From a virus, in the IMG/VR virus record IMGVR_UViG_3300007514_000023, positions 1 through 49,530 of that record: a stretch of 49,530 nucleotides of DNA. One strand, written 5' to 3'. The notes beneath the pieces were generated by a model, which worked only from the letters and a program-made list of their open reading frames with translations, made no database searches and was not told where the DNA came from. The position numbers and the translations under genes are program-made. How positions within the stretch are numbered: position 1 is the stretch's first letter; each line of letters opens with the position of its first letter. Positions 489 to 45,700 of this stretch are shown piece by piece.

Positions 489-1112
489 TTAAGATTGATA
501 ATTTAACCACCCTGTAAGAACATACTTTTCATGTTCCTTAGTGATCTGACCCCTATGAGTATGAGTCCAATCAGATGGCCAGATTATAGTTAAACCTTGA
601 ATCGCTGGGACTATTAATTTTTGATACATGAATTCCGTACCCCCAGCTGGTACGGTATTCAAATACGTCATAAATGCTAGACAACGTGATTGTGTAGCAA
701 GTCCATTTCTTTCACAATGCCAATGATAAAATCCTTCACTTGGTTTGTACTTTTGCATATTTATAATTTCTTTTACTCCATACGATTCCATCTCATATGC
801 TTGTTTGAACTTATATTCATATTCAGCAATACATTTATTTAAACCGTCTATGTAATTATTTAAAACCAAGCGATCTTGAATATTATCCAAATCGAAATAT
901 ATATCTGTACTTTTCTTTCGTTTCTCATTCGAGACTAATGTATTTCTATGTTCATCACACGTTCCATACATTTGACCAGTATGATGCCTTCCAGTATTTA
1001 ATTCATAATACGATATTAAATCCTCACATATCTTTTCTTCTAGATAACACCCATGAATAAAAGTTTCATCAGGAAATTCATGCAACTTCAAACTTGTCGG
1101 TTTTTTTACCAC
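489..1112 (-). CDS. 2OG-Fe(II) oxygenase, prolyl-4-hydroxylase-like
   Basis: A 207-residue protein with the double-stranded beta-helix signature of 2-oxoglutarate/Fe(II) dioxygenases. An H-x-E pair sits at H132/E134 in 'YHWHCERN', followed by 'AFMTYLN', 'GGTEFMYQ', a distal His near 184-186 ('THTHRGQ') and a basic residue in 'KYVLTGW' that would bind 2-oxoglutarate. Glu in place of the commoner Asp is tolerated in some members. The family hydroxylates proline, lysine or small molecules using O2 and 2OG; the substrate is unknown. The start is GTG at 1110-1112: AAGGAG lies 7 bases upstream, and the ATG just before it is followed within two codons by a stop. It overlaps the end of the proline dehydrogenase gene by 35 bases, so the two are probably translationally coupled. 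Confidence 0.8.
   Translation of the reverse strand: MVKKPTSLKLHEFPDETFIHGCYLEEKICEDLISYYELNTGRHHTGQMYGTCDEHRNTLVSNEKRKKSTDIYFDLDNIQDRLVLNNYIDGLNKCIAEYEYKFKQAYEMESYGVKEIINMQKYKPSEGFYHWHCERNGLATQSRCLAFMTYLNTVPAGGTEFMYQKLIVPAIQGLTIIWPSDWTHTHRGQITKEHEKYVLTGWLNYQS
758..765 (-). promoter_or_regulatory. TATAAATA box inside the oxygenase gene
   Basis: An exact match to the T4 late -10 element on the minus strand, inside the 2OG oxygenase coding region (reading I-I-N-M) and about 280 bases upstream of the 66-residue gene. It may serve the downstream genes or be chance in AT-rich coding DNA. Confidence 0.2.
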
Positions 1113-1998
1113 TCCATAGCTCCTTCACAACATTTACCACCACCATTTTCATATTATCATACTCTTTCAATCTTCGTAGAGTATATGGCAACCATTCAGT
1201 TCCGAATGGAACATATAATCGAACCTTGTAACCTTTATCCTTTAATTCTTTACTTAAATCCCTACGAATACCATATAACATTTCAAAGTCCATATCATCT
1301 CTTGAGACATTAAACTTCTTCATGTTCTTTACAACTTCTGTTAATACATATTCATCATGCGTACCTACAGCAGATACAGGGGTTGTAATATCCTTAAAAT
1401 GATAATATGATCGACACCTATTTGTAATAATCTGAAATATATTTTTTATAAACAGTTGTCTAATTTGTTTTTTATTTTGATATGCTTCTTTATTAGTTTC
1501 CTTATATGCACCTTTAACAATCCTTAATGAAATCTTACTGTCTAACAAATCTTTAATATCTCTACTGGTTCTAAGTAAATTACTTTGTAATGCAATTCCA
1601 ACATTGTTAGAATGATCTCTTAACTGAAAACATAAATCAATAGTATCTTGTGTCAAAGAAGCATCTTCCATATCCAACCTAACAGTCATACCATTATGAT
1701 CTGCAAGGAAAGAAAGACTCCGCAATACCTTTTGACAATAATCTGTATCAAATTTCAGTCCTAACTGTGATGGTTTAATAGACAGATCAATCTTAATGTT
1801 CCTTTGAGAATAATAAGCTATAATCTCTAGGTATTGTCTATATGCTTTCTCACAATCTTCTCTAGTCTTACTTAATTCACCTAAGTAGTCTATTGAGACT
1901 TCAAATCCGTTTTGCATTAAATCAGCAATTACTGGTTTCGCAGAGTCAAAGTCATGTCCAGCAATAAATCGTTTTGCAAATGGATATAATAATTTCAT
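1078..1998 (-). CDS. Proline dehydrogenase (FAD-dependent PRODH), auxiliary metabolic gene
   Basis: A 306-residue protein, about the size of bacterial monofunctional proline dehydrogenases (roughly 300 aa), which oxidise L-proline to pyrroline-5-carboxylate with FAD and pass electrons to the quinone pool. Conserved PRODH blocks occur in order: 'TVRLDMEDA' (106-113), 'GIALQSNLLRT' (134-144), 'LRIVKGAYKE' (158-167, with the flavin-region Lys), 'GTHDEY' (212-217), 'FEMLYGIRRD' (238-247) and the C-terminal proline-binding block 'VRLYVPFG.EWLPYTLRRLKE' with the Arg pair at 275-276. All key blocks are present, so it looks active. The preceding zinc-ribbon gene overlaps its start by 4 bases and a 2OG oxygenase overlaps its end. 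It probably diverts host proline to energy or glutamate during infection, which is inference from the family. Confidence 0.85.
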   Translation of the reverse strand: MKLLYPFAKRFIAGHDFDSAKPVIADLMQNGFEVSIDYLGELSKTREDCEKAYRQYLEIIAYYSQRNIKIDLSIKPSQLGLKFDTDYCQKVLRSLSFLADHNGMTVRLDMEDASLTQDTIDLCFQLRDHSNNVGIALQSNLLRTSRDIKDLLDSKISLRIVKGAYKETNKEAYQNKKQIRQLFIKNIFQIITNRCRSYYHFKDITTPVSAVGTHDEYVLTEVVKNMKKFNVSRDDMDFEMLYGIRRDLSKELKDKGYKVRLYVPFGTEWLPYTLRRLKEYDNMKMVVVNVVKELWSGKKTDKFEVA

Positions 1999-2216
1999 TC
2001 TTTCTTTTCCTCTTTAGGTTTAGGGGGTTTCTTACCATAACCATCCTTATACCATCCACCACCTTTTAAATGAAATGACGGTGCATCCAATTCTCTAATC
2101 ATAACACCAGTACACCCTTCTTGTTCACAAGGAAATTTATTGTCTCTTTTTTTTATATCAACAAATGCTTCATCAACAAACCCACACAAAGTACAACGAT
2201 AACTATAAAGTGGCAT
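1995..2216 (-). CDS. FmdB-family zinc-ribbon protein
   Basis: A 73-residue protein starting MPLYSYRCTLCGFVDE, the typical FmdB-type zinc-ribbon N-terminus. Two Cys pairs (C8/C11 and C29/C34, 'FPCEQEGCTGVM') would bind one zinc. The tail is basic and Pro/Lys-rich (KKPPKPKEEKK), suggesting nucleic-acid or protein contact. FmdB proteins are described as putative regulators; their biochemical role is not settled. Its stop overlaps the proline dehydrogenase start by 4 bases (ATGA), so they are co-translated. Confidence 0.8.
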   Translation of the reverse strand: MPLYSYRCTLCGFVDEAFVDIKKRDNKFPCEQEGCTGVMIRELDAPSFHLKGGGWYKDGYGKKPPKPKEEKKE

Positions 2217-2218
2217 TT

Positions 2219-2404
2219 CTATTCCCTCGGAACAAAATCATATTTTAATACTTTCGTATAACAACCAGAATGATATTTTCCCACATGGTTCTGATTAAAC
2301 AACTTTGCTGTTAATAAACACTCATTTAACGAACCGTCAAATATACGTTTCTCAGCTGACAAATTAGATAATGTTAGTACCCACATAATTATAACGAAAT
2401 TCAC
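2219..2404 (-). CDS. Small exported hypothetical protein (61 aa)
   Basis: A 61-residue protein with a hydrophobic N-terminus (MNFVIIMWVLTLSNLSA) resembling a Sec signal peptide or a single membrane anchor, followed by a polar domain with two cysteines (C29 and C48) that could form a periplasmic disulfide. It overlaps the end of the upstream paralogue gene by 4 bases and lies 2 bases before the FmdB-like gene. Function unknown. Confidence 0.65.
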   Translation of the reverse strand: MNFVIIMWVLTLSNLSAEKRIFDGSLNECLLTAKLFNQNHVGKYHSGCYTKVLKYDFVPRE

Positions 2405-3030
2405 GATATTTTTTTATGTCTATTAAAATAATCACCGCCAGGCATTCCTAAATGTGTTCTTCCATCTAATACTTTATGATTAACACTTCCCTTTTTTATA
2501 TACTGTAACATTACTTGACCATAATAATCATGTTCGCAAGGTTCTCTCCAATTACTAGTAATAGAACCATCATATACTATCATATCACCAACATTCAAGT
2601 TTGCTTGAAACGACTCACCAGTTTTTAGTCCTACAAAAAAAGGATATAGTTTATCAGACCCATCATGTCCTAAGTGTACTGCAGCTGTAATGTTTTCTTC
2701 TGTACGTCCTGTACCTCTTGATGACATAATCACATTTCCCTTTAAATACATTCTACAATTAGAAACCATTGGTAATAATTCATGTCCAGAATACTTTTCC
2801 ACACTTTCCAGTTGTCTCATCATAACAAGATCAAATGCTGGATCACCAAACAATACGAATGAACCCTTACACTCAGGTTCATCCTCAAGAGTACCAAGAA
2901 AAGGTTGATCTGCAAACAAACCATTTTCATAAAAATACTTAGTTCTTAAATACTTAATAGTCTGGTACTCATATAAAAAATTACAATGTTCTTTTGATAA
3001 TGCATTTTCTATAACAACAGGTTTTAACAT
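2401..3030 (-). CDS. Degenerate 2OG-oxygenase-like paralogue, metal ligands lost
   Basis: This 209-residue protein is a clear paralogue of its upstream neighbour (3031-3675). Shared blocks include 'FLYEYQ.IKY', 'GDPAFD.V.MR.LE', 'L.PMVS..R.Y.KG', 'IT..VH.GH.G', 'N.GDM..Y', 'DYYGQ.ML.Y' and 'DGR..LGMP'. In the neighbour the Fe ligands would be H106, D108 and H161; here the aligned positions are S104, G106 and N160. All three are lost while the fold residues and the following Arg ('NWREPC') remain. It is therefore probably a non-catalytic pseudoenzyme, for instance a regulatory or heterodimer partner, or a binding protein. Its ATG directly follows the upstream TAA. Confidence 0.7.
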   Translation of the reverse strand: MLKPVVIENALSKEHCNFLYEYQTIKYLRTKYFYENGLFADQPFLGTLEDEPECKGSFVLFGDPAFDLVMMRQLESVEKYSGHELLPMVSNCRMYLKGNVIMSSRGTGRTEENITAAVHLGHDGSDKLYPFFVGLKTGESFQANLNVGDMIVYDGSITSNWREPCEHDYYGQVMLQYIKKGSVNHKVLDGRTHLGMPGGDYFNRHKKIS

Positions 3031-3675
3031 TTAGTTTCCCCCCTTTTCTTCATTTAACCAAGGCGGTGGCATACCAATATTAATTCTCCCATCTAAAAAC
3101 GGTACAGGTTTTCCTTCTGGTGTTAAATTACCCTTAGTTGCATAATGTAACATTAACTGACCATAATAATCATACTTACATGGATCACGCCAATGTTCCA
3201 GATCACCAACATATATTAACATATCACCAATATTTAAATGAACCTCTGCGAGTTCGCCTTCGGGAGATCGTACATATAAAGGCCATGTATCTTTTTCTTC
3301 CCCTTCGTGTCCTATATGTATTGTCGCAGTAATAGTTCTATCCCATGGCCTATCTTTGTGTCTTATAAGTTCATCACCCTTTTCATATAGTCTTGCATAA
3401 GAAACCATTGGTATTAAATCTAAACCAGATTCCTTTGATACTAATTCCAAATGTCTCATCAAAACAATATCAAAAGCAGGATCACCATATATCCAAAACG
3501 ATTTATCTTTTGACAAATAATCAGCACCAAAATCACCATGAATAGGATGTCTCTCAATTAAATTATTATCGTATAAGTGTTTAGTTGCTTCATATCTAAT
3601 GTTTTGATACTCAAATAAGAAGTTCGCATGAATATCTGGTATTACTTTCTGTATTACCTTATAAGGCGGTTTCAT
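3031..3675 (-). CDS. 2OG-Fe(II) oxygenase-like protein (intact ligands)
   Basis: A 214-residue protein with the pattern expected of a 2OG/Fe(II) dioxygenase: 'YEKGDELIRHKDRP' gives H106-x-D108, 'TITATIHIG' is the next strand, 'NIGDMLIYVGDLEHWRDPC' gives the distal His 161, and R163 follows. The family assignment rests on these ligands and their spacing; overall similarity to named enzymes is weak by eye. The start is well placed: GGAG lies 9 bases upstream and the ATG follows the gp46 stop directly (TAAATG). Its downstream neighbour is a paralogue without the ligands, so the pair arose by tandem duplication. Confidence 0.65.
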   Translation of the reverse strand: MKPPYKVIQKVIPDIHANFLFEYQNIRYEATKHLYDNNLIERHPIHGDFGADYLSKDKSFWIYGDPAFDIVLMRHLELVSKESGLDLIPMVSYARLYEKGDELIRHKDRPWDRTITATIHIGHEGEEKDTWPLYVRSPEGELAEVHLNIGDMLIYVGDLEHWRDPCKYDYYGQLMLHYATKGNLTPEGKPVPFLDGRINIGMPPPWLNEEKGGN

Positions 3676-5376
3676 TTATCTGTACTCCATAGTTGTAAAG
3701 TTTTTAAGTTTCTCTACTGTAATCTTGTCAGGAAACTTATCGTCTAGTATATCTAATTTATGAGATATAACAAACAAATTAGTTTTATCAAGTATCGCAA
3801 ACAATTTCATTAAATCATCCACTCCTGCTTGATCTAGACTTGCATCAAAAACTTCATCTAGTATTAACAAATTAACATTAACAGAGTTACGCATGGATGC
3901 AATATGTCTCCAAGTCAATAACAACGCAATATCAATTCTTTTCTTCTCACCTTCTGAAAAAGAATAATAGGAGAAATCGTCCCTGTGTCTACTCTTAATC
4001 GTTTCTTGAAAGTTCTCATCCAACTGGAAATTAACAAAGAAATCCATATCCTTCAAATACAAGTTTACATAATTATTAATAACTGGTAAATACTTGCGAA
4101 TAATCTTTGTCTTAATACCCTTGTCATTTAAAATCATTCCAAGAATATCATAATATCTCTTTTGTTCACCATATTGTGTTTTGAGTCCTTTTTGTTCTTC
4201 CAATTCCCTATTTAAAATATTTGTTTTTCCTGTATCAACTTCCTCTGCTTCTTCTTTCAATTCTTGATTTAAATGGTTTATAAATCTATTATGTGATTTT
4301 ATATGACCATTCTTTGAAGTTATTTCAGAGTTAATATGTTGTATCTCATCATTAACTAATTTAATATCTTCTAATCGGGATAAAACATTATTAACTTCCG
4401 TTTCCAATTTATCCAAACCATCATTCATCTCATCTATATCATCATCCAAGTCATTCAACTTAACCTTTTTGAATGATTCATCAATATCCTGCTCGCAAGT
4501 CGGACAATTAGTTTTCTCTTGAAAGAACCGTTTATCCTTATTCAATTTCTTTAGATTCTTATTAATTTGTGTCCGATACTTATCTAAATCCGAATTCTTT
4601 TTATGAACACTATTTTCATCTTTTATTTGTTTGTTTAACGTAAAGATAACTTCCTCATGCACTTCTATTTCTGCATGAAGTCTTGCAATATCTCTTTCTG
4701 CTTCTTCAATCTTTTCTAAATCTGTTTTTCTCTTTTTATCTGATTTCTCTTTAAGTTCTTCTAATTGTTTTTCATGTAATTTTATTTTCTCAACCAACAA
4801 CTTAACATTATATTCAACTTCACTTATTTCTTCTTTAAGAATAACATGGCGATCTTTAAGTAGGTTTCTCATAATAGAGAATATACCAATGTCCAGAATA
4901 TCCTCAATAATTATTCTACGATCACTAGCAGATAATTGCATAAAGGGAACAAATGATGCTGAACCTAAAACAACAATCTGTGTAAATGATTTAAAGTTTA
5001 ACTTTAATACTTTTTCTTCAAGATACTTTTGATAGTCCATAGACTTTGCATCTTGATTAACCAATTTACCACCACTAAAGATTTCAAACAACGCTGGTTT
5101 AATGCCACGTCTTATTTTCCATTCTGTCTTTCCTACCGTGAATTCAATCTCCGTAACAAGTTCTTTTTCGTTGATGGTATTCATCAACTGACCCTTACTT
5201 ATCTTTTTAAAAGGTTTCCCAAACAAAGAAAAGGTGATAGCATCAATCAATGTTGATTTACCAGCACCATTCTTACCCACAACTAATGTCATGGATTCCT
5301 TATCTAGTTTTACTTCTAAAAATTGATTCCCTGTCGATAGAAAGTTCTTCCAACGAACTGTCTGCAATCTTATCAT
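3676..5376 (-). CDS. 46: gp46 recombination endonuclease subunit (SbcC/Rad50-like ATPase)
   Basis: A 566-residue SMC-like ATPase with Walker A 'GKNGAGKST' at 34-42, long coiled coils around 185-400 interrupted by a zinc hook 'CPTC' at 291-294, the ABC signature 'FSEGEKKR' at 473-480 and Walker B 'LLILDEVFDASLD' at 503-515. In T4, gp46/gp47 form the Rad50/Mre11-type nuclease that resects DNA ends for recombination-dependent replication and also helps degrade host DNA. Its length matches T4 gp46 (560 aa). The start overlaps the gp47 stop by one base (TAATG), giving coupled translation of the two subunits. Confidence 0.95.
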   Translation of the reverse strand: MIRLQTVRWKNFLSTGNQFLEVKLDKESMTLVVGKNGAGKSTLIDAITFSLFGKPFKKISKGQLMNTINEKELVTEIEFTVGKTEWKIRRGIKPALFEIFSGGKLVNQDAKSMDYQKYLEEKVLKLNFKSFTQIVVLGSASFVPFMQLSASDRRIIIEDILDIGIFSIMRNLLKDRHVILKEEISEVEYNVKLLVEKIKLHEKQLEELKEKSDKKRKTDLEKIEEAERDIARLHAEIEVHEEVIFTLNKQIKDENSVHKKNSDLDKYRTQINKNLKKLNKDKRFFQEKTNCPTCEQDIDESFKKVKLNDLDDDIDEMNDGLDKLETEVNNVLSRLEDIKLVNDEIQHINSEITSKNGHIKSHNRFINHLNQELKEEAEEVDTGKTNILNRELEEQKGLKTQYGEQKRYYDILGMILNDKGIKTKIIRKYLPVINNYVNLYLKDMDFFVNFQLDENFQETIKSRHRDDFSYYSFSEGEKKRIDIALLLTWRHIASMRNSVNVNLLILDEVFDASLDQAGVDDLMKLFAILDKTNLFVISHKLDILDDKFPDKITVEKLKNFTTMEYR

Positions 5377-6443
5377 TATTCTTCCATGTTAAGTGCTTCA
5401 TTGTATATAACTTTTAATAGTTTCTTTATCTTTATCTTTTCGTCATCCCCATTATCAGGTAATGTGTCAACATACTCATCTAAAAAATCAGATGTATTTC
5501 CAACTTCTATATCATCATCACCCTCACCTTCATACCTCGCACTATACTCACTCAAATCTTCCAGTATAGTTAAGTCTGATAAATCGGACACATATAGTCT
5601 ATCGACAAACGATTCGTATTGTACTGAATCGTTTTTCTTTTCTACAATTAACTTTACAATCTTATCTTTATATTCGGACGTATCAATGTTTGTATAATCA
5701 TATGAATCGTCATCATAATATATCTTTTCAAACAAACGAAACTTGTTTTGTATAAATTCCAATTCCCTTGTTTCCGTATCGAACACATGAAACCCTCTAG
5801 GATCATCATAGTCATTCCATGTTATTTCATAAGGCGCACCTAGATAATGAATGTTACCTTGACTTGACTTGTGATGGTAATGTCCAGAACAAACTACCTC
5901 ATATCCTTTAAATAAAGATTTGGGTATTCCTTCCTCTGCATTATAACCCTTGTACATGGCAAACCCTGCTACTTCTAAATGACCAAACAGAACTTGATTT
6001 TTAGATTCCCTAATAAACTTTATTGTTTCATCATAGTTCTCAGAATTAAGCCATGGAATAATATCAATTTCAAGATCATCAAGTAAAACACTTGCTGGTT
6101 TAGAAAATGTTTCAACATTATTATAATGTCCATAAAGTAATTCAGAACTATTAACTGAATTCGTATTCCTATAATATGTCGAGTGGTTTCCTACAATAGA
6201 ATGTAAGTTAATACCACGTTCACACAAAACATCAAAATAGAATTTCTTTACTTCATTTAATATATTAAAGTTTACAAACTTTCGCCTATCAAATGTATCA
6301 CCTAAATCAATAACGGTGTCAATATTGTTTTCTTTTAAATACGGAAAGAACTGTTGTTCATAAAACTTTCTTATGTAATTCAAAAAGTTCTGACTGTCTT
6401 GTTTCCCGCCGAAGTGCTGATCCGTTATTAGTGCTACCTTCAT
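5376..6443 (-). CDS. 47: gp47 recombination endonuclease subunit (SbcD/Mre11-like)
   Basis: A 355-residue metallophosphoesterase with the Mre11 motifs in order: 'DQH' at residues 8-10, 'DLGDTFDRR', 'VGNHSTYYRN', 'FGHLEVAG' and 'SGHYHHKS'. It supplies the Mn-dependent nuclease of the gp46/gp47 complex. The frame is open 40 codons further upstream, but gp47 proteins begin 'MKVALITDQHFGG', so I place the start at the ATG at 6441-6443; the extra residues do not look like the family. The ribosome site is weak (AAAGAA). The start lies inside the 3' end of a zinc-ribbon gene (86-base overlap), so translation may depend on that gene. Confidence 0.93.
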   Translation of the reverse strand: MKVALITDQHFGGKQDSQNFLNYIRKFYEQQFFPYLKENNIDTVIDLGDTFDRRKFVNFNILNEVKKFYFDVLCERGINLHSIVGNHSTYYRNTNSVNSSELLYGHYNNVETFSKPASVLLDDLEIDIIPWLNSENYDETIKFIRESKNQVLFGHLEVAGFAMYKGYNAEEGIPKSLFKGYEVVCSGHYHHKSSQGNIHYLGAPYEITWNDYDDPRGFHVFDTETRELEFIQNKFRLFEKIYYDDDSYDYTNIDTSEYKDKIVKLIVEKKNDSVQYESFVDRLYVSDLSDLTILEDLSEYSARYEGEGDDDIEVGNTSDFLDEYVDTLPDNGDDEKIKIKKLLKVIYNEALNMEE

Positions 6444-6585
6444 ATTTCTTTGTCCATTTTTTTCCACACCTACTACATTCAAATTCTTGTAATACACATC
6501 CATCAGACATTCGACTAACTGTAAATCCACAATGCGTTTCTTTACAGTCGGAACATAACTCAAACATCATAACGTGATAATCCAA
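6358..6585 (-). CDS. Small zinc-ribbon protein overlapping gp47
   Basis: A 75-residue protein with a Cys4 zinc ribbon: 'CSDC' near the N-terminus and 'ECSRCGKKW' about 25 residues later. The basic C-terminal tail is encoded in the same DNA as the first 28 residues of gp47 in another frame. I favour the TTG start at 6583-6585, because AAGGA lies 7 bases upstream; ATG codons at residues 6 and 7 lack such a site. The ribbon suggests binding to nucleic acid or polymerase. Function unknown. Confidence 0.65.
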   Translation of the reverse strand: MDYHVMMFELCSDCKETHCGFTVSRMSDGCVLQEFECSRCGKKWTKKYEGSTNNGSALRRETRQSELFELHKKVL

Positions 6586-6653: not shown

Positions 6654-7175
6654 TTATTCAAAATAGAGTTCTAAATTGGGCGTTTTCTTCTTTTTCTTAT
6701 CAGGATTTGTAGCATATTTCTCATGGGTCTTTAAATATTCGATCCATGTCTTTGTAATTTTCTTATTTTCTTCATTATCTGGATTTAACTCATCTAGAAT
6801 ACCTGATCGCTCAACGAAAAGATATTTAATGTGCATCAATTTTCTTTCTTTAACAATTCTCCTAACGTATGCATGATGTATAATCTGTGTAAAATATGAA
6901 AAAGGATTCTTAGATTTTTCTGGATTGAAATTGTGAGCATATAACAAACAATTCTCAATACCGTCAGAAATCAGATCATCTCGGAATGTGTAATTAATAA
7001 AATTAGGGCGCATAATTAAATGTTCACAAATCTTCAAAAAACATTCACCCATATATTCAGTAGAAGGCGGATCATCTTCTTCAACTTCCCTTGCATCAAT
7101 AACCCGCTGTTTCCATTTTTTCATTTCTTTAAAAAACTTCTCATTATCTACATAATGTTTTCTTTTATCAGTCAT
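6654..7175 (-). CDS. 55: gp55, sigma factor for late transcription
   Basis: A 173-residue protein matching the T4 gp55 family (185 aa in T4), the small sigma factor that directs host RNA polymerase to TATAAATA late promoters with the help of gp33 and the gp45 clamp. Family features include the 'DPPSTEYMGECFLKICEHLIMR' block, 'NFNPEKSKNPFSYFTQIIHHAYVRRI' (a sigma region 2-like helix with aromatic residues), and a basic C-terminus ending 'NLELYFE', a likely clamp-binding tail. Its start overlaps the dUTPase stop by 4 bases. Its presence fits the eight well-placed TATAAATA boxes in this window. Confidence 0.9.
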   Translation of the reverse strand: MTDKRKHYVDNEKFFKEMKKWKQRVIDAREVEEDDPPSTEYMGECFLKICEHLIMRPNFINYTFRDDLISDGIENCLLYAHNFNPEKSKNPFSYFTQIIHHAYVRRIVKERKLMHIKYLFVERSGILDELNPDNEENKKITKTWIEYLKTHEKYATNPDKKKKKTPNLELYFE

Positions 7176-30725: not shown

Positions 30726-31610
30726 TTAGATACCATGTAATTGAAAATCAATAGTTGTGTTCGCTGTCGAAACAGCATTGGTTAAACTTACACTTGTTCC
30801 ATTATTAGCTGTAAAATCTTGTCCATTAATTAATTTAATACCATTCATATATACAAAAATATTATCAACAATATAATTAATATTAAATGTCTGTTCTCCT
30901 ACATTCGGAGTAATAGAACTTAAAGTAACTGATGGTTTAAAGGATAATGTTCCAGCACCATCAGTTGTCATAATATGATTCTGTGTACCATCAACAATAT
31001 CAAGTTCGGGAATACCAATTTTATTAGATTCTATTTCTAATGATTCACAAGGCCCTGATAAATCTTGTCCACCAGCAATATTTATAAAAATTAAATTTCC
31101 AGCACCATCTGTGCCTGGAAATTGTTGTATACCATTTGTATACTGAGTTGTCTTATCTAATTCAGGTGTGCCTATAGTATTAGGATCAATGTCTGCATTA
31201 TCAATCGTACCTGAAAGATCACTGCCCCAGTTTGCAGAAATCATTGCTGTTGATATTTTTAAATCAGTAAATTCTGTTGTAGCAATTTTAGTTGAACTAT
31301 CACCTTGACCAGTAGTTACACCAGTTACACTTGTGGTTAATGCTACATCCATATAACCATTAATATTAATATTACCTACACCCATAATATCATGGTTGTT
31401 TACATCTAAGTCATCACCAAGTTGTGGCGACTTGTCATCATGGATTGTACTAAGGAATCCGTCAAAATCTGCTTTCTTCTCATTAATAGATTCAACCAAA
31501 GAAGATTTAATCGTAGTGTTTAAATTATCTAATTCCCCATGATCTATGGGTATTAGATTAGTCTTTTCAATCCAAAGTTTTAAATTATCTTTTTTAGTTA
31601 CTGTTATCAT
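30726..31610 (-). CDS. Tail-fibre-like virion protein (294 aa)
   Basis: A 294-residue fibre protein. The head 'LKLWIEKTNLIPIDHGELDNLNTTIKSSLVESINEKKADFDGFLSTIHDDKSPQLGDDLDVNNHDIMG' resembles T4-like appendage N-termini. It continues with 'DSSTKIATTEFTDLKI', two TDGAG modules ('TDGAGNLIF' and 'MTTDGAGTLSF') and the C-terminal FLNGVKL-type module ('NIFVYMNGIKLINGQDFTANNGTSV'). Its ATG lies within the last 17 bases of the radical SAM gene, so both are made from one mRNA. A TATAAATA at 31079-31086 inside it may be chance. Confidence 0.7.
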   Translation of the reverse strand: MITVTKKDNLKLWIEKTNLIPIDHGELDNLNTTIKSSLVESINEKKADFDGFLSTIHDDKSPQLGDDLDVNNHDIMGVGNININGYMDVALTTSVTGVTTGQGDSSTKIATTEFTDLKISTAMISANWGSDLSGTIDNADIDPNTIGTPELDKTTQYTNGIQQFPGTDGAGNLIFINIAGGQDLSGPCESLEIESNKIGIPELDIVDGTQNHIMTTDGAGTLSFKPSVTLSSITPNVGEQTFNINYIVDNIFVYMNGIKLINGQDFTANNGTSVSLTNAVSTANTTIDFQLHGI

Positions 31611-32991
31611 GTACCGCTTCCTCTATACCAAATATATTTATTCTATCTTCTGGTGTTTCCGTTTCACCTTCAATTCTATAAAGAAGTTTGGCATCTCCCA
31701 TATGTGCTGTTATTTGATATAGAGCAGCAGTCAACCAAACAACATTATCACTAAAAGCATTATTACAAGATATATCCCATAACTCTGAATCGGGTTCAAG
31801 AAACAAACATGATCCTTGACAAAGTTGCAATACTGGACAATTAGAACAATCTTTTCTATCAGACCAATGTGTTCCAGCATTAATTTTAAGTTTATCTAAA
31901 CCTTCATCACCATTATCAAGACTACCAATGTTATGACTTATCCCCGCTGTATTAGATGATGATGCTGTAACATTTTGACAAGTTGTAATAGTTCCGTTTA
32001 AATCAACTGAAAGGGTATCAGGACTATCCATACCACATTTTTGATTTAATGCTTCAGCGGGTCTTTGTGATTGCAAAGTTTGAATGAAGTTTTCTGTTTT
32101 CTGTGAAAGTATATTAAACCTAGATACTTTCTGATTGGTAATTTCATAAATTGATTTTTTTCTATATTCAATATGTTCTTCGGGTGTACTCCAAGAATTA
32201 TTTTTTCCACCTTCATCATATGCATCAACAGTACCACCCTCACCTATCGGAAGAATACCAACTTTATTTTCAAACCATTTTGCAATATCACCACGACTCT
32301 CATTATATTTGTGAACCATACTATTAAAAGATATATGACCTAGAGGTGCTAATTTGTTTTTCAATTTTTGAATCATCTTAGCTTTTTCAGGATCATCAAA
32401 TGGGTCTGGCCCTCTAGTTGGTTGTCCTGGCCCATCATGCGAAATAGATATACGAACATCATGTTTCTCAATAAAATCAATTATCTCATCTGTAAACAAC
32501 GATCCATTTGTTATAATACTATAAGTAGATTTTGGATATTTCTCATGTAGTTGTTCGACTAAAGGTTTTAGAGTTTTCCAATAAAGGAAAGGTTCTCCAC
32601 CCCATAATTCAAAATGTGGTTCGTCTTGAATTGATATGTTGTCAAACTTCTTAACATATGCTTCTACTTCATCATCTCCAATATGATACATATCGGATGT
32701 GTCCAAATGATCGTCTTTATTTCTTGGTACAAATCGTTGTGAACAATAATCACAAGAATAATTACACTTTAAACCTAAACTTATTTTTATCTTTTTTAAA
32801 TTTCTTTTACCAGCAGACATTCCCCAACTATCTTGTTTACTCCAATCCATAAAATTAGTTTGTGGTATAACAATATCACCATTGGATTGACGTAGTTCAG
32901 AAGTCATATTATCATAAGTCATATAAAATTCATCATTATTATTTTCATCAGCGTTTCTTACACTTGACATATAAAATTTAAATTTAGCCAT
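31594..32991 (-). CDS. Radical SAM/SPASM enzyme, peptide or protein maturase type
   Basis: About 465 residues. The radical SAM core has 'LKCNYSCDYC' (CxxxCxxC; C76, C80, C83), which binds the [4Fe-4S] cluster that cleaves S-adenosylmethionine, and 'ELWGGEPFLYW' (GGEP, 131-134). The C-terminal SPASM domain matches the canonical pattern in full: C319-x13-G-x4-C338, then C382-x2-C385-x5-C391-x3-C395 and C409, enough for two auxiliary Fe-S clusters. SPASM enzymes (anSME, sactipeptide and ranthipeptide synthases, PqqE) modify peptides or proteins. No precursor-recognition (RRE) domain is obvious. I use the ATG at 32989-32991, which has GAGG 6 bases upstream. It follows a 2OG oxygenase by 2 bases and overlaps a fibre gene. 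Confidence 0.9.
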   Translation of the reverse strand: MAKFKFYMSSVRNADENNNDEFYMTYDNMTSELRQSNGDIVIPQTNFMDWSKQDSWGMSAGKRNLKKIKISLGLKCNYSCDYCSQRFVPRNKDDHLDTSDMYHIGDDEVEAYVKKFDNISIQDEPHFELWGGEPFLYWKTLKPLVEQLHEKYPKSTYSIITNGSLFTDEIIDFIEKHDVRISISHDGPGQPTRGPDPFDDPEKAKMIQKLKNKLAPLGHISFNSMVHKYNESRGDIAKWFENKVGILPIGEGGTVDAYDEGGKNNSWSTPEEHIEYRKKSIYEITNQKVSRFNILSQKTENFIQTLQSQRPAEALNQKCGMDSPDTLSVDLNGTITTCQNVTASSSNTAGISHNIGSLDNGDEGLDKLKINAGTHWSDRKDCSNCPVLQLCQGSCLFLEPDSELWDISCNNAFSDNVVWLTAALYQITAHMGDAKLLYRIEGETETPEDRINIFGIEEAVHDNSN

Positions 32992-32993
32992 TA

Positions 32994-33845
32994 TCAACCT
33001 CGGAATGTTTTTAGAAGTTCGTTATACCCATGTGATATAATTCTAAAGTTAGTTACAATACAAACTCTTGTTCCTTTACCCAGCCAAGGATTAGTTTCAT
33101 GCCATAAATAGTTTGGATGAATTATTGTTAATCCAACTCTAGGTGTAATAGCGTAAACCTTTTCCCAATAAGGATAAGAAATTGCTGGTCTTGGGTCTTG
33201 AAACAAAACCTGATGTGTTCCATTTCTAGGTGATTGTTCCTGACCAACTAAAACCTGATCTTCTAATGCAACATTCTCATCACCCATCGCTAAATAGGTA
33301 ACTACAACTCCATTAATGTCTTGATGATAATGTGGATAGGTTCGTGCTCCACCCAACTCACTATCTCTTTGTACATTACCAAAACATCTCCCCTCAATAA
33401 TCATATCATCTGCTTGTCTTATTCCCCATCCATAACGAATGTAATAACGAATTTGTTGACAAACAATCTGTTCATATGCTAATATAGATTCTTTTTCATT
33501 TGGAAATTCATCCATATCTTTATCATCAAAAAGATTATAATGCGTAGTAGCATAAAATCCTTTTGATTTAGCCATATCATGGAAATCAGGTTCTTTAGTT
33601 TTAATATCTTCCATTGATAATTCTTTTGCAGTTAAGACTTTACACAAGTCTTTATTGATTTTATCAGGAAGTGTCGAATCCATTTCCATAAATGGTGTAG
33701 TCCACTTATGATCTATGTTTGCGTGTTTATGAAAGGGATGATCGGTTTTATCTTCGGCTTCAGGTTCTAAATCTTTCCAATACTGTATGTGTTCTGGTGT
33801 TTGTTCATTATACGCTTCATACTCATTCGTTTTGAAGATTCCCAT
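32994..33845 (-). CDS. 2OG-Fe(II) oxygenase in the fibre locus (intact ligands)
   Basis: A 283-residue 2OG/Fe(II) dioxygenase-like protein. 'TYPHYHQDINGVVVTYL' gives H174-x-D176, 'LFQDPRPAISYPYW' is a family block, 'PNYLWHETNPW' gives the distal His 249, and 'GKGTRVCIVTNFRI' the 2OG-binding Arg 260. It is a paralogue of the 35634-36515 protein ('THYNLFDD.D', 'FGN.Q', 'DPRPAI.YPY', 'VWHE'). The frame is open 21 codons upstream, but that region is a terminator stem and AAGGA lies 6 bases before the ATG at 33843-33845, so I start there. Two bases separate it from the radical SAM gene. Confidence 0.82.
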   Translation of the reverse strand: MGIFKTNEYEAYNEQTPEHIQYWKDLEPEAEDKTDHPFHKHANIDHKWTTPFMEMDSTLPDKINKDLCKVLTAKELSMEDIKTKEPDFHDMAKSKGFYATTHYNLFDDKDMDEFPNEKESILAYEQIVCQQIRYYIRYGWGIRQADDMIIEGRCFGNVQRDSELGGARTYPHYHQDINGVVVTYLAMGDENVALEDQVLVGQEQSPRNGTHQVLFQDPRPAISYPYWEKVYAITPRVGLTIIHPNYLWHETNPWLGKGTRVCIVTNFRIISHGYNELLKTFRG

Positions 33846-33870
33846 TTTAATCCTTCCATCATATTTGTTA

Positions 33871-33902
33871 AAAATATTATGGGGGGCATAATTACCCCCC
33901 AT
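33871..33902 (-). terminator. Intrinsic terminator after the 339-aa virion protein
   Basis: On the minus strand ATGGGGGG/CCCCCCAT pair across an 8-base loop and are followed by AATATTTTT. It lies between the virion protein gene (stop at 33914) and the 2OG oxygenase start, so the oxygenase and radical SAM genes depend on read-through or an unseen promoter. Confidence 0.75.
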
Positions 33903-33913
33903 CTTCAAATATT

Positions 33914-34933
33914 TTATGCTACAGTATAATCAACATCAGCAAGACCAGAATAATTCCTAAATCCAATCTTTACTTTAAATGTATCACCAGCAGACATTCC
34001 CAAAGCACCGACTTTAAATGAACCAGTACCGTCTGTTATACTAACACGTTGTTTTGGTAGATAACCGCCTGTATGTTCAAGATAAACATCAGTTGCATGG
34101 TTAATCGTAGAACCATCACTATCAACCATTTTAAAGTCAACTGTTTCGTATGCATCAGCATCAATACCACCACCACCATTTGTTACTACAAATGTAGGTA
34201 ATGCTTCTGTCATATGTCCAACATAATCATAACCAGTTCCACTTTCCCAACCACTTGTGGTATTTGTACTAAAACCATAAGCCTTGTTATATTTAATAGT
34301 ATATGAAGCATCCATAAAAGAAGTATCAGTAAATGGTCGATAACAAAGTAAAGCACACGGAGCTCCAGAATGTCTGGATTCTCTCAATGGATGTGATTTA
34401 GTGTTATAGGTTTTACCGATAGAATTAAAAGCGGGTTGTGTATAATGCCATCCACCTACTTTGGCACCCATTCTGACTGGCCAAACTGAAGGTACTGTAG
34501 CAAAACCAACACCAACAGTCCAAACAGCAGCATCAGAATTTTCTGCACCCATAGAAGGATCAGTAGGATCAATCCACGAATAAGAAGCACATCTGAAATA
34601 TTTACCAGCCATTTTAGCGGTATAAGTACCCTTAATATTATCAGGCATATGAACAAGAAGTTCCTCACCAGTTATTTTAGCACCATAAAGTCTTGAGGTT
34701 GGAAGTTTTGTGTGAAAAATTCCTGAATTATTACCAGGCCAGTCCATATGGTCTACGCTGGAATCTCCAACCAAACTTCTTTCAGGAGTTCTACCAATAT
34801 CAGCTTCCATACTATCGCTCTCATACATTTCTTCGTCTATTTCCATCCAGTTTTTCAAACATATAAAATCATCATTGACTAACAATTCCAGATGCGTCGG
34901 CATGGAAAGACTGTCATAAGATCGTCTAAACAT
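33914..34933 (-). CDS. Virion structural protein of the fibre locus (339 aa)
   Basis: A 339-residue protein, unlike the repetitive fibres: aromatic-rich central region ('YFRCASYSWIDP', 'VGGWHYTQPAFNSIGKTYN') and a C-terminal Ig-like beta domain ('DVYLEHTGGYLPKQRVSITDGTGSFKVGALGMSAGDTFKVKIGF'). Such Ig-like ends are common on phage surface proteins. The central part has no family I can name. It ends at an intrinsic terminator. Probably a surface-exposed appendage protein. Confidence 0.6.
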   Translation of the reverse strand: MFRRSYDSLSMPTHLELLVNDDFICLKNWMEIDEEMYESDSMEADIGRTPERSLVGDSSVDHMDWPGNNSGIFHTKLPTSRLYGAKITGEELLVHMPDNIKGTYTAKMAGKYFRCASYSWIDPTDPSMGAENSDAAVWTVGVGFATVPSVWPVRMGAKVGGWHYTQPAFNSIGKTYNTKSHPLRESRHSGAPCALLCYRPFTDTSFMDASYTIKYNKAYGFSTNTTSGWESGTGYDYVGHMTEALPTFVVTNGGGGIDADAYETVDFKMVDSDGSTINHATDVYLEHTGGYLPKQRVSITDGTGSFKVGALGMSAGDTFKVKIGFRNYSGLADVDYTVA

Positions 34934-34980
34934 TTTGCATATTCTCCTATTTAATTATTTTTGATAAGTTATATGTAAGA

Positions 34981-35565
34981 TTAACAATTACAAGCACAGG
35001 CACAGTCGCAGGCACAAGCACAAGCAGTCTGACAATTATATTCTCCTAGAAGAACATTTGCACCTGACGTTGTATTTTGCAACCCAATTCGGCCCCCACA
35101 AGCAGTACCACCAAAGCCTGGATTTGTCGGGCCCCAAATACTAACCTGACCAGTACCACCAGTAATCGTTCCTGTTCCACCAGCAGTAGCACAGTTAGCA
35201 TGGTTTGTACAGTTTGTTACCCATGTTCCATCACCACGCAAGTAAGTTGAACTGTTTTGAGTTCCAGAACCCAAACGTGCTCGGTTGATAGTTCCCGAAC
35301 TAATGTTAGCAGCATTTGTAGTATCTGTCGTAGCACTAGCTGCTAACCCACTAACTTGACCGGCAGGCAAATTAGATATACGAGCATTCGGCAACGTACC
35401 CGAACTAATATTATCAGCATTCGTAGTGTCTGTCGTAGCAGAAGCAACTAGAGAAGGTTTATTTAGAATCGTATTCCAATCACTTGCTGGAACATTATCC
35501 AAAGCACCAGATACAACATCTCCACCTGAATCTATAAGATCAGCGATTTGTCTTGCTATAGTCAT
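34981..35565 (-). CDS. Fibre-like protein with an alternating Ala-Cys C-terminus (194 aa)
   Basis: A 194-residue protein. Residues 1-105 are ordinary fibre repeats ('PASDWNTILNKPSLVASATTDTTNADNISSGTLPNARI' and 'SATTDTTNAANISSGTINRARL'), then 'STYLRGDGTWV'. The C-terminal third is Cys-containing ('NCTNHANC', 'GGTACGG') and ends CQTACACACDCACACNC, eight cysteines in 17 residues, confirmed codon by codon to the TAA. Alternating Cys on a beta strand would all face one side; in a trimer this could form a metal site or disulfide tip, or be a substrate for the radical SAM/SPASM enzyme encoded 2 kb downstream. Both are inferences. Confidence 0.75.
   Translation of the reverse strand: MTIARQIADLIDSGGDVVSGALDNVPASDWNTILNKPSLVASATTDTTNADNISSGTLPNARISNLPAGQVSGLAASATTDTTNAANISSGTINRARLGSGTQNSSTYLRGDGTWVTNCTNHANCATAGGTGTITGGTGQVSIWGPTNPGFGGTACGGRIGLQNTTSGANVLLGEYNCQTACACACDCACACNC
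35227..35249. repeat. 23-bp exact repeat, copy 2 (YLRGDG module)
   Basis: Identical to 28297-28319 and encodes the same 'TYLRGDG' segment in the Ala-Cys protein. Confidence 0.8.
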
Positions 35566-35633
35566 TTGTTTATTCCTTTTTAAAAATTAATTGATAATGT
35601 TAATATAGATATGATGTAAATATAGTTGTTGAT

Positions 35634-36515
35634 TTATGTTTTAATCAATGGTTTAACCAATCCATTATTATTGTATGTATTGACACGATAATTAATCACC
35701 ACCGCTGCTCTTATACCTCTACCACTAAAAGTGTTAGATTCGTGCCATACATAAGCAGGATGAAATAAAGTCGTTCCAATCTTAGGAACATAATCTTTTG
35801 CCTTACTATTATACGGATAATTAATAGCAGGTCTAGGGTCTAACAGTAATAACGCACCCTCTGTTTCATTAGGCATATCTTCCTTCTTTAAATCAAAATC
35901 AGCATAATTTGCAACCGTTCCCTTTCGTCCTTCACTATCATCATCAGATTTAAGTTCACAAATTGTCGAGCCAGGAGCTACAAGTTGTAAATCATCATCC
36001 CCATCAACGTCAGTAGTTAAAGCAAACTCACCACCAAGCGTTAAGTATGTAATCATAACACCATCAAAAGCGTGATGGTAGTGTGGAAAGGTTCTGCGGC
36101 CAGTAGTTTGCATATTACCAAACCCCCGACACTCAATGTCTAACTGATCAGCATTTTTTACATTGTAAGCGTTTGCGACATAGTATCGTATTAATTCACT
36201 CGATATTTCTTCATAACCTTTTATGGCAGGATTGTTGTCTCTGTCATCAAAAAGATTATAATGATTTCTTTCAAACTCTATTGTCATGGTTCTCTTATGA
36301 GTACCCATTGTCGTACAATAACCTTTAGAAGCAATATACTCTATTAAACCAACTCTCATATCTTCAGGTAAATTTAATTCTATTCTTCCTATAGGCGTAA
36401 CCCACTCAGGAGTTATTTGTAGATTACCGTCTAAAGGATGACCACCAAGATACTTATCTTGTCTTTCTAGTTCTTCTTGGGATAACCTATAACCAGTTTC
36501 CGTTTTAGTTTCCAT
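35634..36515 (-). CDS. 2OG-oxygenase paralogue with an altered metal site (HxA)
   Basis: A 293-residue paralogue of the oxygenase at 32994-33845. Shared blocks include 'HYNLFDDRDN', 'ECRGFGNMQ', 'LLLLDPRPAINYPY', 'FHPAYVWHESN' (distal His 258) and 'GRGIRAAVVINYRV' (Arg 269). The ligand region reads 'TFPHYHHAFDGVMITYL'; where the paralogue has H-Q-D, this one has H147-H148-A149. Ala at the carboxylate position is known from SyrB2-type 2OG halogenases, where chloride takes the site. D151 or the extra His could compensate instead, or the protein may be inactive. A 40-residue acidic insertion (about 165-205) is unique to it. Confidence 0.72.
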   Translation of the reverse strand: METKTETGYRLSQEELERQDKYLGGHPLDGNLQITPEWVTPIGRIELNLPEDMRVGLIEYIASKGYCTTMGTHKRTMTIEFERNHYNLFDDRDNNPAIKGYEEISSELIRYYVANAYNVKNADQLDIECRGFGNMQTTGRRTFPHYHHAFDGVMITYLTLGGEFALTTDVDGDDDLQLVAPGSTICELKSDDDSEGRKGTVANYADFDLKKEDMPNETEGALLLLDPRPAINYPYNSKAKDYVPKIGTTLFHPAYVWHESNTFSGRGIRAAVVINYRVNTYNNNGLVKPLIKT

Positions 36516-36524
36516 ACACCTACC

Positions 36525-37400
36525 TTAGCAATAAACGTGAAATTCTACCCTATCTGACGTATCAAGCGCCTGACCACCAATCAATGTTACACTTGTTCCA
36601 TTGTCAGCAGTAAAGTCTGAATCTTTGACTAGTTTAACACCATTTAAAAATACAACAATTCTTCCAACATTGTATGTAATTGTAAATTCAGTTTGACTTG
36701 CTGTTGGCGTAACTGTTGTTTCTGTAACTACTGGTTGAAAACTAACAGTACCAGCACCATCCGTAACTAGGGCATTACCCATTGAACCTTCTGATGCGTT
36801 TAATTCATTAACACCAACTGTATTTGCATTAATTTGAGCATTACTTAATGTTCCACTTACATCACCCGACAGAGTTAAATCAACATCAATAAAACTTAAA
36901 TTTCCAGCACCATCCGTAGAAAGTATTTGTCCATTCGTTCCATCTGCAACATTTAATTCAGTAATACCAACCACATTTGCAATAATCTGAGCATTTCCGA
37001 TTGAACCTGAAATATCACCACCAACAGGAGCCATTTGTATTTCATTTTGAACGTATGCAGTAGTTGCTATTTTAGTTGAATTATCACCAGTTGAATGTGT
37101 TACGCCAACCGTATCTGCATGAAGTGTACCTGTATAACTCCCTGATATATTAATATTACCAGTACCAGTAATATTTGCATTGAATATATCTAAGTCGCCA
37201 CCCAACTGAGGTGTCAAATCTTCAACAACATTTTCTAATTTACCAGTTATATAAGTAGATAATTCATTTATAGCAGACACCAAATCGACTTGACTTGAAG
37301 TTGTCAACGCTGTTAGATCACCACTATTTGTGGAAATCGTATTGGTCTTGATTCTCCACTCATCAAAGGTGTCTATTAAGTTTACAGTTACTAATGCCAT
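36525..37400 (-). CDS. Tail-fibre-like virion protein (291 aa)
   Basis: A 291-residue fibre protein. Its N-terminal head 'NLIDTFDEWRIKTNTISTNSGDLTAL' is the usual start of marine T4-like appendage proteins. Then come 'GDNSTKIATTAYVQNEI', two modules 'DGTNGQILSTDGAGNLSF' and 'EGSMGNALVTDGAGTVSF', and the C-terminal FLNGVKL module. A late promoter lies 18 bases upstream, so it probably starts a transcription unit that includes the oxygenase, the Ala-Cys protein and the 339-residue protein. Confidence 0.7.
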   Translation of the reverse strand: MALVTVNLIDTFDEWRIKTNTISTNSGDLTALTTSSQVDLVSAINELSTYITGKLENVVEDLTPQLGGDLDIFNANITGTGNINISGSYTGTLHADTVGVTHSTGDNSTKIATTAYVQNEIQMAPVGGDISGSIGNAQIIANVVGITELNVADGTNGQILSTDGAGNLSFIDVDLTLSGDVSGTLSNAQINANTVGVNELNASEGSMGNALVTDGAGTVSFQPVVTETTVTPTASQTEFTITYNVGRIVVFLNGVKLVKDSDFTADNGTSVTLIGGQALDTSDRVEFHVYC

Positions 37401-37418
37401 TGTTACCTGTCCTTTAAA

Positions 37419-37426
37419 TATTTATA
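37419..37426 (-). promoter_or_regulatory. Late promoter TATAAATA inside the fibre locus
   Basis: An exact consensus on the minus strand, 18 bases before the ATG of the 291-residue fibre gene. Confidence 0.75.
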
Positions 37427-37465
37427 ATTTTCATTACTTATGTTTTAGTTAAAACGGATTTAATT

Positions 37466-38080
37466 TTAATTTATTTTTGGTTGATGCGTATAAAAGTGCG
37501 TAATACACCATCTACCATAACCCTTACCAACATTCTCCTGATCCATACTTACCATATCTACCTCATGTAGATAATAACTTGGGAAGATAACCATTCTGTT
37601 GTGTTTACATTCAACTATACTATCTGATTGAGGAAACTTTAAATCCCCACCAGTAAACCTCTTTGGTTCTCTGTAAAACCATATCAAACAAGTATGCATG
37701 AAAGTATCAAAATGAGTTTTATATTCATCTTGATTTTCATAATAACTAACTATTGACTGATCTATGTTACACGATAACCATGTTCTCCATGAAGGAGTCG
37801 TTTTTTGATATTGTTCTACAACAGGTAATGAACAAACTCTCCCATGATGTCTTAATATACTTGACTTATCTCTTTGACCCCTATAAAAATAATCTAATGC
37901 AAGTCTACTTAGTATTGCTGGATTTTCTTCACTAGAACCAATAGGGATTTTATCCTTAACACAATACCTTTCAAGATAGTCTAATTCTTTCAAGATTTCT
38001 TCTTCTTGATTCCTATCATAAAAATCATCTACCATCAAGTAAGGGTAAATATTATATTCATTATATATTTTAAATTTCAT
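37466..38080 (-). CDS. 2OG-Fe(II) oxygenase, prolyl-hydroxylase-like
   Basis: A 204-residue 2OG/Fe(II) dioxygenase. 'EYKTHFDTFMHTCLIWFYR' gives H123-x-D125, 'FTGGDLKFP' is the family's GG.L strand, 'NRMVIFPSYYLHEVDMV' gives the distal His 172, and R190 in 'GYGRWCITHFY' would bind 2OG. All key residues are present, so it should be active; prolyl or lysyl hydroxylation of a protein is likely. It is a different subfamily from the other two in the fibre locus. Its ATG directly follows the stop of the 554-residue fibre gene. Confidence 0.85.
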   Translation of the reverse strand: MKFKIYNEYNIYPYLMVDDFYDRNQEEEILKELDYLERYCVKDKIPIGSSEENPAILSRLALDYFYRGQRDKSSILRHHGRVCSLPVVEQYQKTTPSWRTWLSCNIDQSIVSYYENQDEYKTHFDTFMHTCLIWFYREPKRFTGGDLKFPQSDSIVECKHNRMVIFPSYYLHEVDMVSMDQENVGKGYGRWCITHFYTHQPKIN

Positions 38081-42717: not shown

Positions 42718-45700
42718 TTACGCCAATGCAATACATCTCAAGTCTTTAATAAGAGGAACTCTAGTAGTCTGTCCTTGTGATGCTGTCATTACAATTTTAA
42801 TTGCAAAAGTTTTAAAACTAGAATATGTTGTAGTACCAACAGTATAAGAAATATTATTTGTAGTTGGTGTGAATTCAAGTTCTAAGTATTCTTCATCATC
42901 CTCAGTTTTAGAAACTGAATTTACATTTGTTACTTCTTGCATTACTGTCCAAGATTTATCATCAAAAATATCAGGATCAAATTGTGAAAGAACTTTATAA
43001 TAACAAGTTACAACAGTTCCACTTTGTCTGTTAGCAGTCAAATAGATTTTTAAATCTTGTGCATCAAAACCATCCTTCAACGTAACACGGCGAGTCAAGT
43101 ATCTTGCAAGTGCATCTCCACCTTCTTTTGCTTCTTCACCTGTTGTCAAATGGTTAATAACATTCTCAATGGTAATCACACTATTTCTTGCAGTATCAAT
43201 TACAGGAGAAATATGTTTACTATTTGATGCCAATGTAGCTCGTGATACATAACTTCCAGCACCTGTAGTAAGTTTTTTCTGTACATCAAGAATATGATTA
43301 GTATATGGCGTAACACTAAAATACTCCATATCCAAATTACTATTATCCACGCCAGTCATCTTAACACCCCAATCAATACCAGTATTATTGATTCTAACTT
43401 CTTGTGGAATTATATCAATAATGTCTGCTTTGATTTCAGAAGAAAGTGTTCCATCTTTAAATACCGCATGAGAAGTACCATCAATAGTAAAGTCTGCACG
43501 ATTCAATTTAAACATCAAGTCCTGATTTTGATCTGGACTCCATGTTGAAGCATTCTGTGATTTAAAGAATACACCAGCATAAGGTTGTTCAGATACTTTG
43601 CGATTTGTACCAATAATGTTTTCACCCATCTCTGCAATATATGCTTCGTATTTTGTACTATTACTAATTACAACTATTGAATATTCACCAGGCTGTAAAT
43701 AAACCAATGATGGGAATGTAAACTTAGTTGCACTTGTCGCATCTTCACTTACAGTAACACTATCAGGATTTAAACTAACATCCGAGAATGGTAAGATTGT
43801 TTGAGTTGGATAACCATTCAATGTATCTCTAATCTGTACTGATACAGGAAGTCCATCCGTATCTTTTGTTTTGAAAAACAAATCAATATCCGATAGAAAA
43901 ATACCATCTGGATATAATGCTTCATCAACTAAAAATGTTTCAGCGAGAGGATCGAACCAACCGACTACTGCATTTCTGGTAAATTGATTTGTCGTTGTTC
44001 TAAACTCTGTAGCACTACCCATAGCAAGTTGTTGTACTCTAGGAACTCTTGAAGCGACAACAACATTTTCTCTTGTCTGTAATAATCCCTGTGCTTGGTA
44101 AACAACTTCCGCATAAGTTCCAGCAGTTACCAGATCACCAGTTGTATTATCTACTAACAAGAATTGTCTTTCACCAGTTCTGAATCTTAACGTATCACTA
44201 TTGGGAATTGTAAAAACCAATCCAGTAATAGTACCAGAAGAATCTGTATAAACCGCATCACCTAAAGCACCCCCATTAGGAGTAACGAAAGCGGAAACAT
44301 CCTCACCATCAAAGAAAGAATACACTCTTGTATTTGGTTTCATTCCAGTAACAGAAACCGCTACATCCCTTGAACGAATAAACGGTATAACAGAAACATC
44401 AACTACTCTTTCACCAATACTGTTTCTTACTGTTTCCGTTCCAGTAATTTCATTTCTAATACCAGTTCGTGTTTGTTGTTGATCTACTTCAACAGTTTGT
44501 CGTTGAATGATAGCACGTCCAGAAGTAAAATTTCCCTGTGTACCTACTACTCTTTCGTTTCTACCAGTACCAATATCCATCCAATCGTTAAACTGTGTAC
44601 CAAATCCCAAACCAACTAATCTTGACCACGCATCATTCTCACCTTGAAGATTAACAACAACTTCGGGTTGTGTGGTAGTATCAATCCAGTTATCGTTTGG
44701 CGGTGTCAAGTCAACAGTACCAACCCATGCAAGTACAGCATATGGATTAACATTAATTGATTTACTTGCGATTGGTTGATCTACAAATGATACCGTACTA
44801 TATGGAAGTGTAATCAAATCACCAGTTTTTTGTACACCAGTAGAATCACCACTATCATAAACAACATCTGTATTTTCGGAATTAAAACTTGGTCGCAAAA
44901 TCTTTTCGTTAAAATCAATAGCACATTTGTAATCGCTACTTGCAACATCACCAACACTATGACCTCTAAACGAATCAGCCAATATTCCATTTTTAAATCT
45001 ATCCAAACCAGTAGCCGCATCTTTAATAGTTAGATTTTCCGTTTCACTTTCTAGTAACGATAATGATGTATAGTATTCTAGATTATCAATTCGTTTTTCT
45101 AATCTTCCTATATCTCGCATTGTATATCTTTTGTTTTCGATATACTTCGCATTAACATCCGTTGCTTTAAATGTATAAGCAGGAATCTCTAGTATGTACA
45201 AATTCATAGTACCATCTAAACGAATAGGCGGTACTGGTATTAAAGAAGGTACACCTTTATTACTTCCAAACTTTCTTTCCCTACTTAAATAAACTGTATC
45301 AGTTCTTGGTAAATAATAACTATAATCAGCAGACCAGTTCGTATTCGGTGCTGGTAATTCAACATTTGAAATTGTATCTGCACCATCCATTCGTCTTGGT
45401 CTAAAGTCAATACAATCTCTCAACTCAACTTCCTCACCAGTTACAGGTGAAGTATAAGTTGGGATGTTTTCAAAACCAACTACCGCATAAGAGTCAACAG
45501 AAAAATATCCTACGCCAGTATGAGTAAAGTAATCAAAGATAACACTAATTCTTCCAGTAGGTGCAGTTCCACCATCCTTTAATATAATTCTTCCATGATC
45601 GTAGAAGTTATCTCTTTGACCATTATCCATAGTATATTGATCTGTTATATTATTTGAACCAACAATCACACTTGTAACTGTTTTTGTAAAACCAGATGTT

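Follow-up and report, generated by a model that had tools for sequence, protein, structure and literature searches.

A gene at positions 1078-1998 of the window, which is the whole 49,530-nt stretch of viral DNA analysed here, probably codes for a functional FAD-dependent, monofunctional L-proline dehydrogenase (PRODH) and, as judged from sequence comparisons, would represent accessory metabolic cargo of a clade of marine T4-like phages. The enzyme itself is an ordinary one, and its occurrence in a phage setting is apparently new as far as our search extended. Proline is a common osmolyte in the sea and serves as a source of carbon and nitrogen; a proline-burning enzyme of phages would link infection directly to amino acid respiration, and such a cargo falls outside the usual themes of marine phages, namely photosynthesis, phosphate, and nucleotides.

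The PRODH Gene and Its Surroundings

The IMG/VR record of 49.5 kb is T4-like with respect to its genes for capsid, portal, terminase, sheath, gp46/47, gp55, uvsW, and uvsY. The features of the PRODH region are as follows:

489-1112, minus strand: 2OG-Fe(II) oxygenase gene, directly downstream of PRODH (PF13640, 5.9e-9; phrog_61, 6.5e-33)
1078-1998, minus strand: PRODH gene, 306 aa, ATG start (assigned by Pfam, PDB, structural model, residues, and dN/dS)
1995-2216, minus strand: FmdB-like zinc-ribbon gene, directly upstream of PRODH (phrog_1076, FmdB-like, 4.7e-6)
3676-5376, minus strand: gp46, SbcC-like recombination nuclease subunit, T4 core gene and locus marker (phrog_77, 2.6e-163)
5376-6563, minus strand: gp47, SbcD-like subunit, T4 core gene and locus marker (phrog_100, 4.9e-112)
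6654-7175, minus strand: gp55, late sigma factor (phrog_234, 2.7e-53)

The 306-aa protein matches Pfam family PF01619 (Pro_dh) with an E-value of 2.6e-30 and a score of 106.4 bits, the cut-off being 27, over positions 4-268 of the 278 in the profile, and its gene is the sole Pro_dh match in the whole record. A sequence search of the PDB returned the PRODHs of Thermus (2ekg, 3.8e-40) and Deinococcus (4h6q, 2.6e-33). The best NCBIfam model is ProDh_Thermus (NF045947; 1.2e-51), whose equivalog cut-off of 500 bits is missed by the score of 175.7 bits, indicating a homologous protein that is not filed in that family, and no PHROGs family matches it. The protein consists of a single domain and contains no fused pyrroline-5-carboxylate (P5C) dehydrogenase domain, and is thus not a PutA. 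Taken together with the predicted fold and the active-site residues described below, these matches confirm the assignment to the monofunctional PRODHs, and the gene appears to be complete.

The stop codon of the FmdB-like gene overlaps the PRODH start by 4 bp (ATGA), and the final 35 bp of PRODH are shared with the 2OG-Fe(II) oxygenase gene; the match of the FmdB-like protein to PF09723 (1.1e-5) lies under the Pfam cut-off. GC and GC3 of the PRODH gene match those of its phage neighbours, so its acquisition does not look recent. The late-promoter-like motif ATAAATA does not occur in the record above chance, and none is found near the PRODH start. Among isolates, Methylophilales phage Melnitz and the Pelagibacter phages HTVC008M and Mosig come closest, with 60-64% identical capsid proteins. 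Their hosts belong to the SAR11 and OM43 bacteria, from which that of the PRODH-bearing phage cannot be deduced; the three isolates share the gene order uvsW - gp55 - gp47 - gp46 but lack PRODH.

Predicted Fold, Active Site, and Selection

An AlphaFold2 model of the protein, calculated on an alignment of 19 viral PRODH sequences, reached a pLDDT of 82.8 and a pTM of 0.83. Its top Foldseek matches are the PRODHs of Deinococcus and Thermus (E about 1e-20, TM 0.82), with 4h6q as the best PDB structure (E 1.6e-20, TM 0.82). The viral PRODHs begin later than their bacterial relatives and do not contain the N-terminal helices; a crystal structure (5m42) exists of a Thermus PRODH without helices A-C.

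The residues of E. coli PutA were mapped onto the phage protein via a 73-sequence alignment with 36 viral rows. Those which we take to form the proline pocket of PutA (K329, D370, Y437, Y540, Y552, R555, R556, and E559) correspond to K75, D109, Y165, Y262, Y272, R275, R276, and E279, and those presumably located on the FAD side (Q404, R431, K434, T486, and H487) to Q138, R159, K162, T213, and H214. All of these positions are invariant in 36 of 36 viral rows. The sequence-only reading had recognized all main PRODH blocks and a C-terminal Arg pair binding the proline carboxylate, and both stand: the Pfam profile is nearly fully covered, the fold matches, every catalytic or proline-contacting residue checked is kept, and the Arg pair is R275-R276, aligned to PutA R555/R556. 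A loss of FAD-binding residues, raised there as an argument against the enzyme, is not observed, as all five are retained by alignment. Values of dN/dS (Nei-Gojobori) range from 0.10 to 0.34 for pairs with useful divergence, which supports purifying selection on a gene that seems to be maintained rather than decaying after capture.

Related Genes in Other Viral Contigs

Three scans of IMG/VR for PRODH were performed, the widest of which yielded 69 contigs; with relatives encoded by that many viral contigs, the observation is far beyond chance. As judged from the gene neighbourhoods, they represent three unrelated types of uncultured phages: about 47 contigs belong to a T4-like clade carrying PRODH near gp55/gp47/gp46 (group A), 16 to other large tailed phages (group B), and four to myoviruses (group C), with two short fragments left unassigned. 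The phage nature of the latter two groups is apparent from a group B contig with genes for a phage DNA polymerase, a DnaB-like helicase, terminase, and rIIA (G010), and a group C contig with a T4-type portal, terminase, and tail sheath (G013).

Within group A, the gene is found either after gp46/FmdB, as in the subclade of the window, or between gp55 and gp47 in the remaining members, and in most group A relatives it begins within the stop codon of gp55. Because the tree keeps the arrangement of the window together, PRODH must have moved at least once inside the group. The pair of PRODH and 2OG-Fe(II) oxygenase genes recurs at both genomic positions (L001, L003, L006, and L011). The 4-bp gene overlaps and the same site near gp55/gp47/gp46 are repeated in dozens of contigs, and with T4 core genes directly adjacent in so many relatives of a T4-like record, PRODH is truly phage-borne, as had been claimed from the sequence of the window. 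The gene is not present in all members of the clade: five of them that span the gp55-gp47 junction carry no PRODH there (L132, L133, L134, L139, and L142), L132 spans the second site as well and contains no PRODH, and none was seen in those 47 T4-like contigs that the gp55 search returned as more distant (less than 60% identity in gp55), many of which are short. PRODH is therefore a frequent yet dispensable cargo of one T4-like clade. Note that one PRODH-bearing T4-like phage contig (L027, PBHE01000046.1) is found inside a species genome labelled Acidimicrobiaceae and is probably misbinned. This taxon was considered as a donor of the gene and rejected, as the contig carries uvsW-gp55-PRODH-gp47-gp46 and represents phage DNA.

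Genes Accompanying PRODH

In group B, a gene of the ornithine cyclodeaminase (OCD) family adjoins PRODH in four contigs (L053, L055, L056, and L220). Among the group B records searched, six contain an OCD-family gene and six an aldehyde dehydrogenase gene, five records being common to both. In group C, PRODH is followed by a saccharopine-dehydrogenase-like gene, and three of the four contigs code for an aldehyde dehydrogenase. None of these three types of partner genes was found in the T4-like records searched, all of which are fragments, and P5C reductase (PF14748) was recorded in none of 18 viral records, T4-like contigs included. A scan with the group B OCD protein returned its own contigs only and is too narrow to judge the T4-like phages.

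The OCD-family gene next to PRODH and the aldehyde dehydrogenase on the same contigs make group B fit a proline metabolism, and the adjacency of the former gene supports proline as the metabolite, with the reservation that the specificity of this OCD-family enzyme is itself uncertain. Its best model is archaeal alanine dehydrogenase, followed by pyrroline-2-carboxylate reductase and OCD, none of which reaches its cut-off; that it produces proline is guessed from its position next to PRODH. An assignment of the group B and C aldehyde dehydrogenases as P5C dehydrogenases finds no support in the NCBIfam models, the best of which are of ketoglutarate-semialdehyde dehydrogenase types, all below cut-off. 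Other genes also border PRODH in these groups. The gene directly upstream of it in a group B contig (L056:6712-7815) matches histidine decarboxylase with 489.9 bits against an NCBIfam cut-off of 305, and a tyrosine phenol-lyase/tryptophanase-like gene overlaps the PRODH start in a group C contig (L063:6643-8004), its score of 643 bits being under the cut-off for tyrosine phenol-lyase and over that of the broader tryptophanase subfamily.

Phylogeny and Origin

A maximum-likelihood tree was calculated from 73 rows, of which the 37 cellular-type ones represent only two phyla, plasmids, and PDB entries along with PutA. It unites groups A, B, and C in a single clan that excludes all 37 cellular-type rows (support 98/96), and groups A and B come together with a support of 98/98. 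The viral PRODHs share about 35% identity with the closest of the cellular sequences in the sample. When 84,980 species, each represented by one genome, were scanned with exact peptide patterns, a method that reaches close relatives only, nothing was returned but the misbinned phage contig L027 and a single distantly related gene from a bacterium. The viral PRODHs thus appear to be a deep lineage of their own, seen so far only in viruses within a narrow cellular sampling, and the donor possibly lies outside the sampled cellular set. The phylogeny that had been suggested for tracing the donor therefore separates a viral clan from the cellular-type rows, and a recent donor is unsupported in view of the low identity and the phage-like GC content.

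A more far-reaching reading, which we regard as tentative and rather doubtful as a whole, combines the exchange of a virus-specific PRODH lineage among unrelated marine phages with a proline-making and -oxidizing route in group B, where the OCD-family enzyme would make proline, PRODH would convert it to P5C, and the aldehyde dehydrogenase would finish the pathway. If it were true, phages would supply their own amino acid-fuelled electrons; the gene sets of group B offer a pathway hypothesis that is open to testing.

Relation to Known Enzymes and Viruses

The phage protein shares fold (TM about 0.82), active-site residues, and one-enzyme layout with the PRODHs of Thermus thermophilus (2g37/2ekg) and Deinococcus radiodurans (4h6q), but is only about 31% identical to them, has its start shifted downstream by about 20-50 residues and lacks the N-terminal helices, is encoded in a phage genome, and belongs to a separate clan of the tree. 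The fold and residues of the PRODH domain are also common to the bifunctional PutA, which differs by its additional P5C dehydrogenase domain and is only a remote relative (E. coli PutA, 24% identical).

Virus-borne PRODHs have been described from the algal virus OtV5, where the gene was called host-like, and from haptophyte viruses of the Phaeocystis/Haptolina type (PMC2386258, PMC11953307); these are eukaryotic giant viruses rather than tailed phages, and the likeness is one of description only. For marine viromes, 'arginine and proline metabolism' is listed only as a broad category (PMC10653327), and the papers on the phage group of HTVC008M, Mosig, and Melnitz do not mention proline. A phage PRODH was reported in no paper found; subscription papers and supplementary tables were beyond the search, and an earlier automatic annotation is possible. 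The viral structure library BFVD contains no phage PRODH, its best match being a protein of Mimiviridae, and no genuine PRODH was found among the isolate phages of INPHARED. Five INPHARED 'phage' records with PRODH were rejected as precedents, being only 29-32% identical and, where placed in the tree, located among the cellular rows. Two of them, Staphylococcus phage UPMK_1 (MG543995.1) and Microcystis phage MaAM05 (MW495066.1), look like bacterial chromosomes around PRODH, with a riboflavin operon and pomA/ompA/murJ, respectively, and may be contaminated or mislabelled; the other three carry no annotation.

Proposed Function and Alternatives

Cellular PRODH oxidizes proline to P5C with FAD and passes the electrons to quinone. 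During infection, the phage enzyme would likewise oxidize host proline to P5C and may feed the electrons into the membrane quinone pool, and the P5C would be converted to glutamate by the P5C dehydrogenase of the host or returned to proline by host ProC. Since no aldehyde dehydrogenase or P5C reductase occurs in the T4-like contigs searched, the fate of P5C should depend on the host in these phages, unless such genes are located outside the fragments. The description as an auxiliary metabolic gene holds well at the level of the enzyme and of an accessory cargo under selection; the energy or nitrogen benefit attached to it is, like the activity, electron acceptor, host, and timing, something we infer, the benefit being seen in respiratory electrons and P5C/glutamate. 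SAR11 bacteria possess genes for the transport and degradation of proline (PMC3686209), which renders the earlier idea of a proline-using host plausible. The proposed function is weakened by the clade members without PRODH, the missed NCBIfam equivalog cut-off, and the lack of a P5C partner in the T4-like contigs.

It seems unlikely that this flavoenzyme of the PRODH fold acts mainly on another substrate, such as hydroxyproline, pipecolate, or N-methylated proline, possibly together with the adjacent 2OG-Fe(II) oxygenase. The low identity to characterized enzymes, the company of the oxygenase at both genomic positions, and the saccharopine-dehydrogenase-like gene of group C would agree with such a role, but the whole proline pocket is kept, together with Tyr262, which corresponds to PutA Y540; the hydroxyproline-bound PDB entry 3e2q is a Y540S mutant, and many group A members do not code for the oxygenase. 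A proline-active enzyme may also serve a purpose other than energy, altering host physiology or defence by proline depletion, by P5C as stress factor or signal, or by reduction of O2 to peroxide. Some reactivity with O2 is known for monofunctional PRODHs and would agree with this, as would the missing P5C dehydrogenase or reductase in the T4-like contigs; we consider it quite improbable, as the aldehyde dehydrogenases in groups B and C fit an onward metabolism and no gene near PRODH suggests defence. That some phages of this clade do not carry the gene might point to a host gene captured by chance or undergoing decay, or else to bacterial contamination of the assembly, with no role in the phage. 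This is highly improbable and contradicted by synteny and low dN/dS, given the full-length ORFs under purifying selection, the invariant active site, and the recurrence of its site near T4 core genes across dozens of different contigs.

Other Genes of the Window

Two paralogous proteins encoded between PRODH and gp46 (2401-3030 and 3031-3675) match PHROGs families labelled 'ferrochelatase'. This label seems doubtful, as the sequence looks like a 2OG-Fe(II) oxygenase, with an HxD...H pattern recognized by eye in 3031-3675. A region at 31594-38080 codes for a radical-SAM protein (31594-32997) and, interspersed with tail genes, for several proteins that weakly match 2OG-Fe(II) oxygenases, and this cluster possibly plays a role in glycan or tail modification. 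By far the largest ORF of the window, coding for 1792 aa, is located at 42718-48096.
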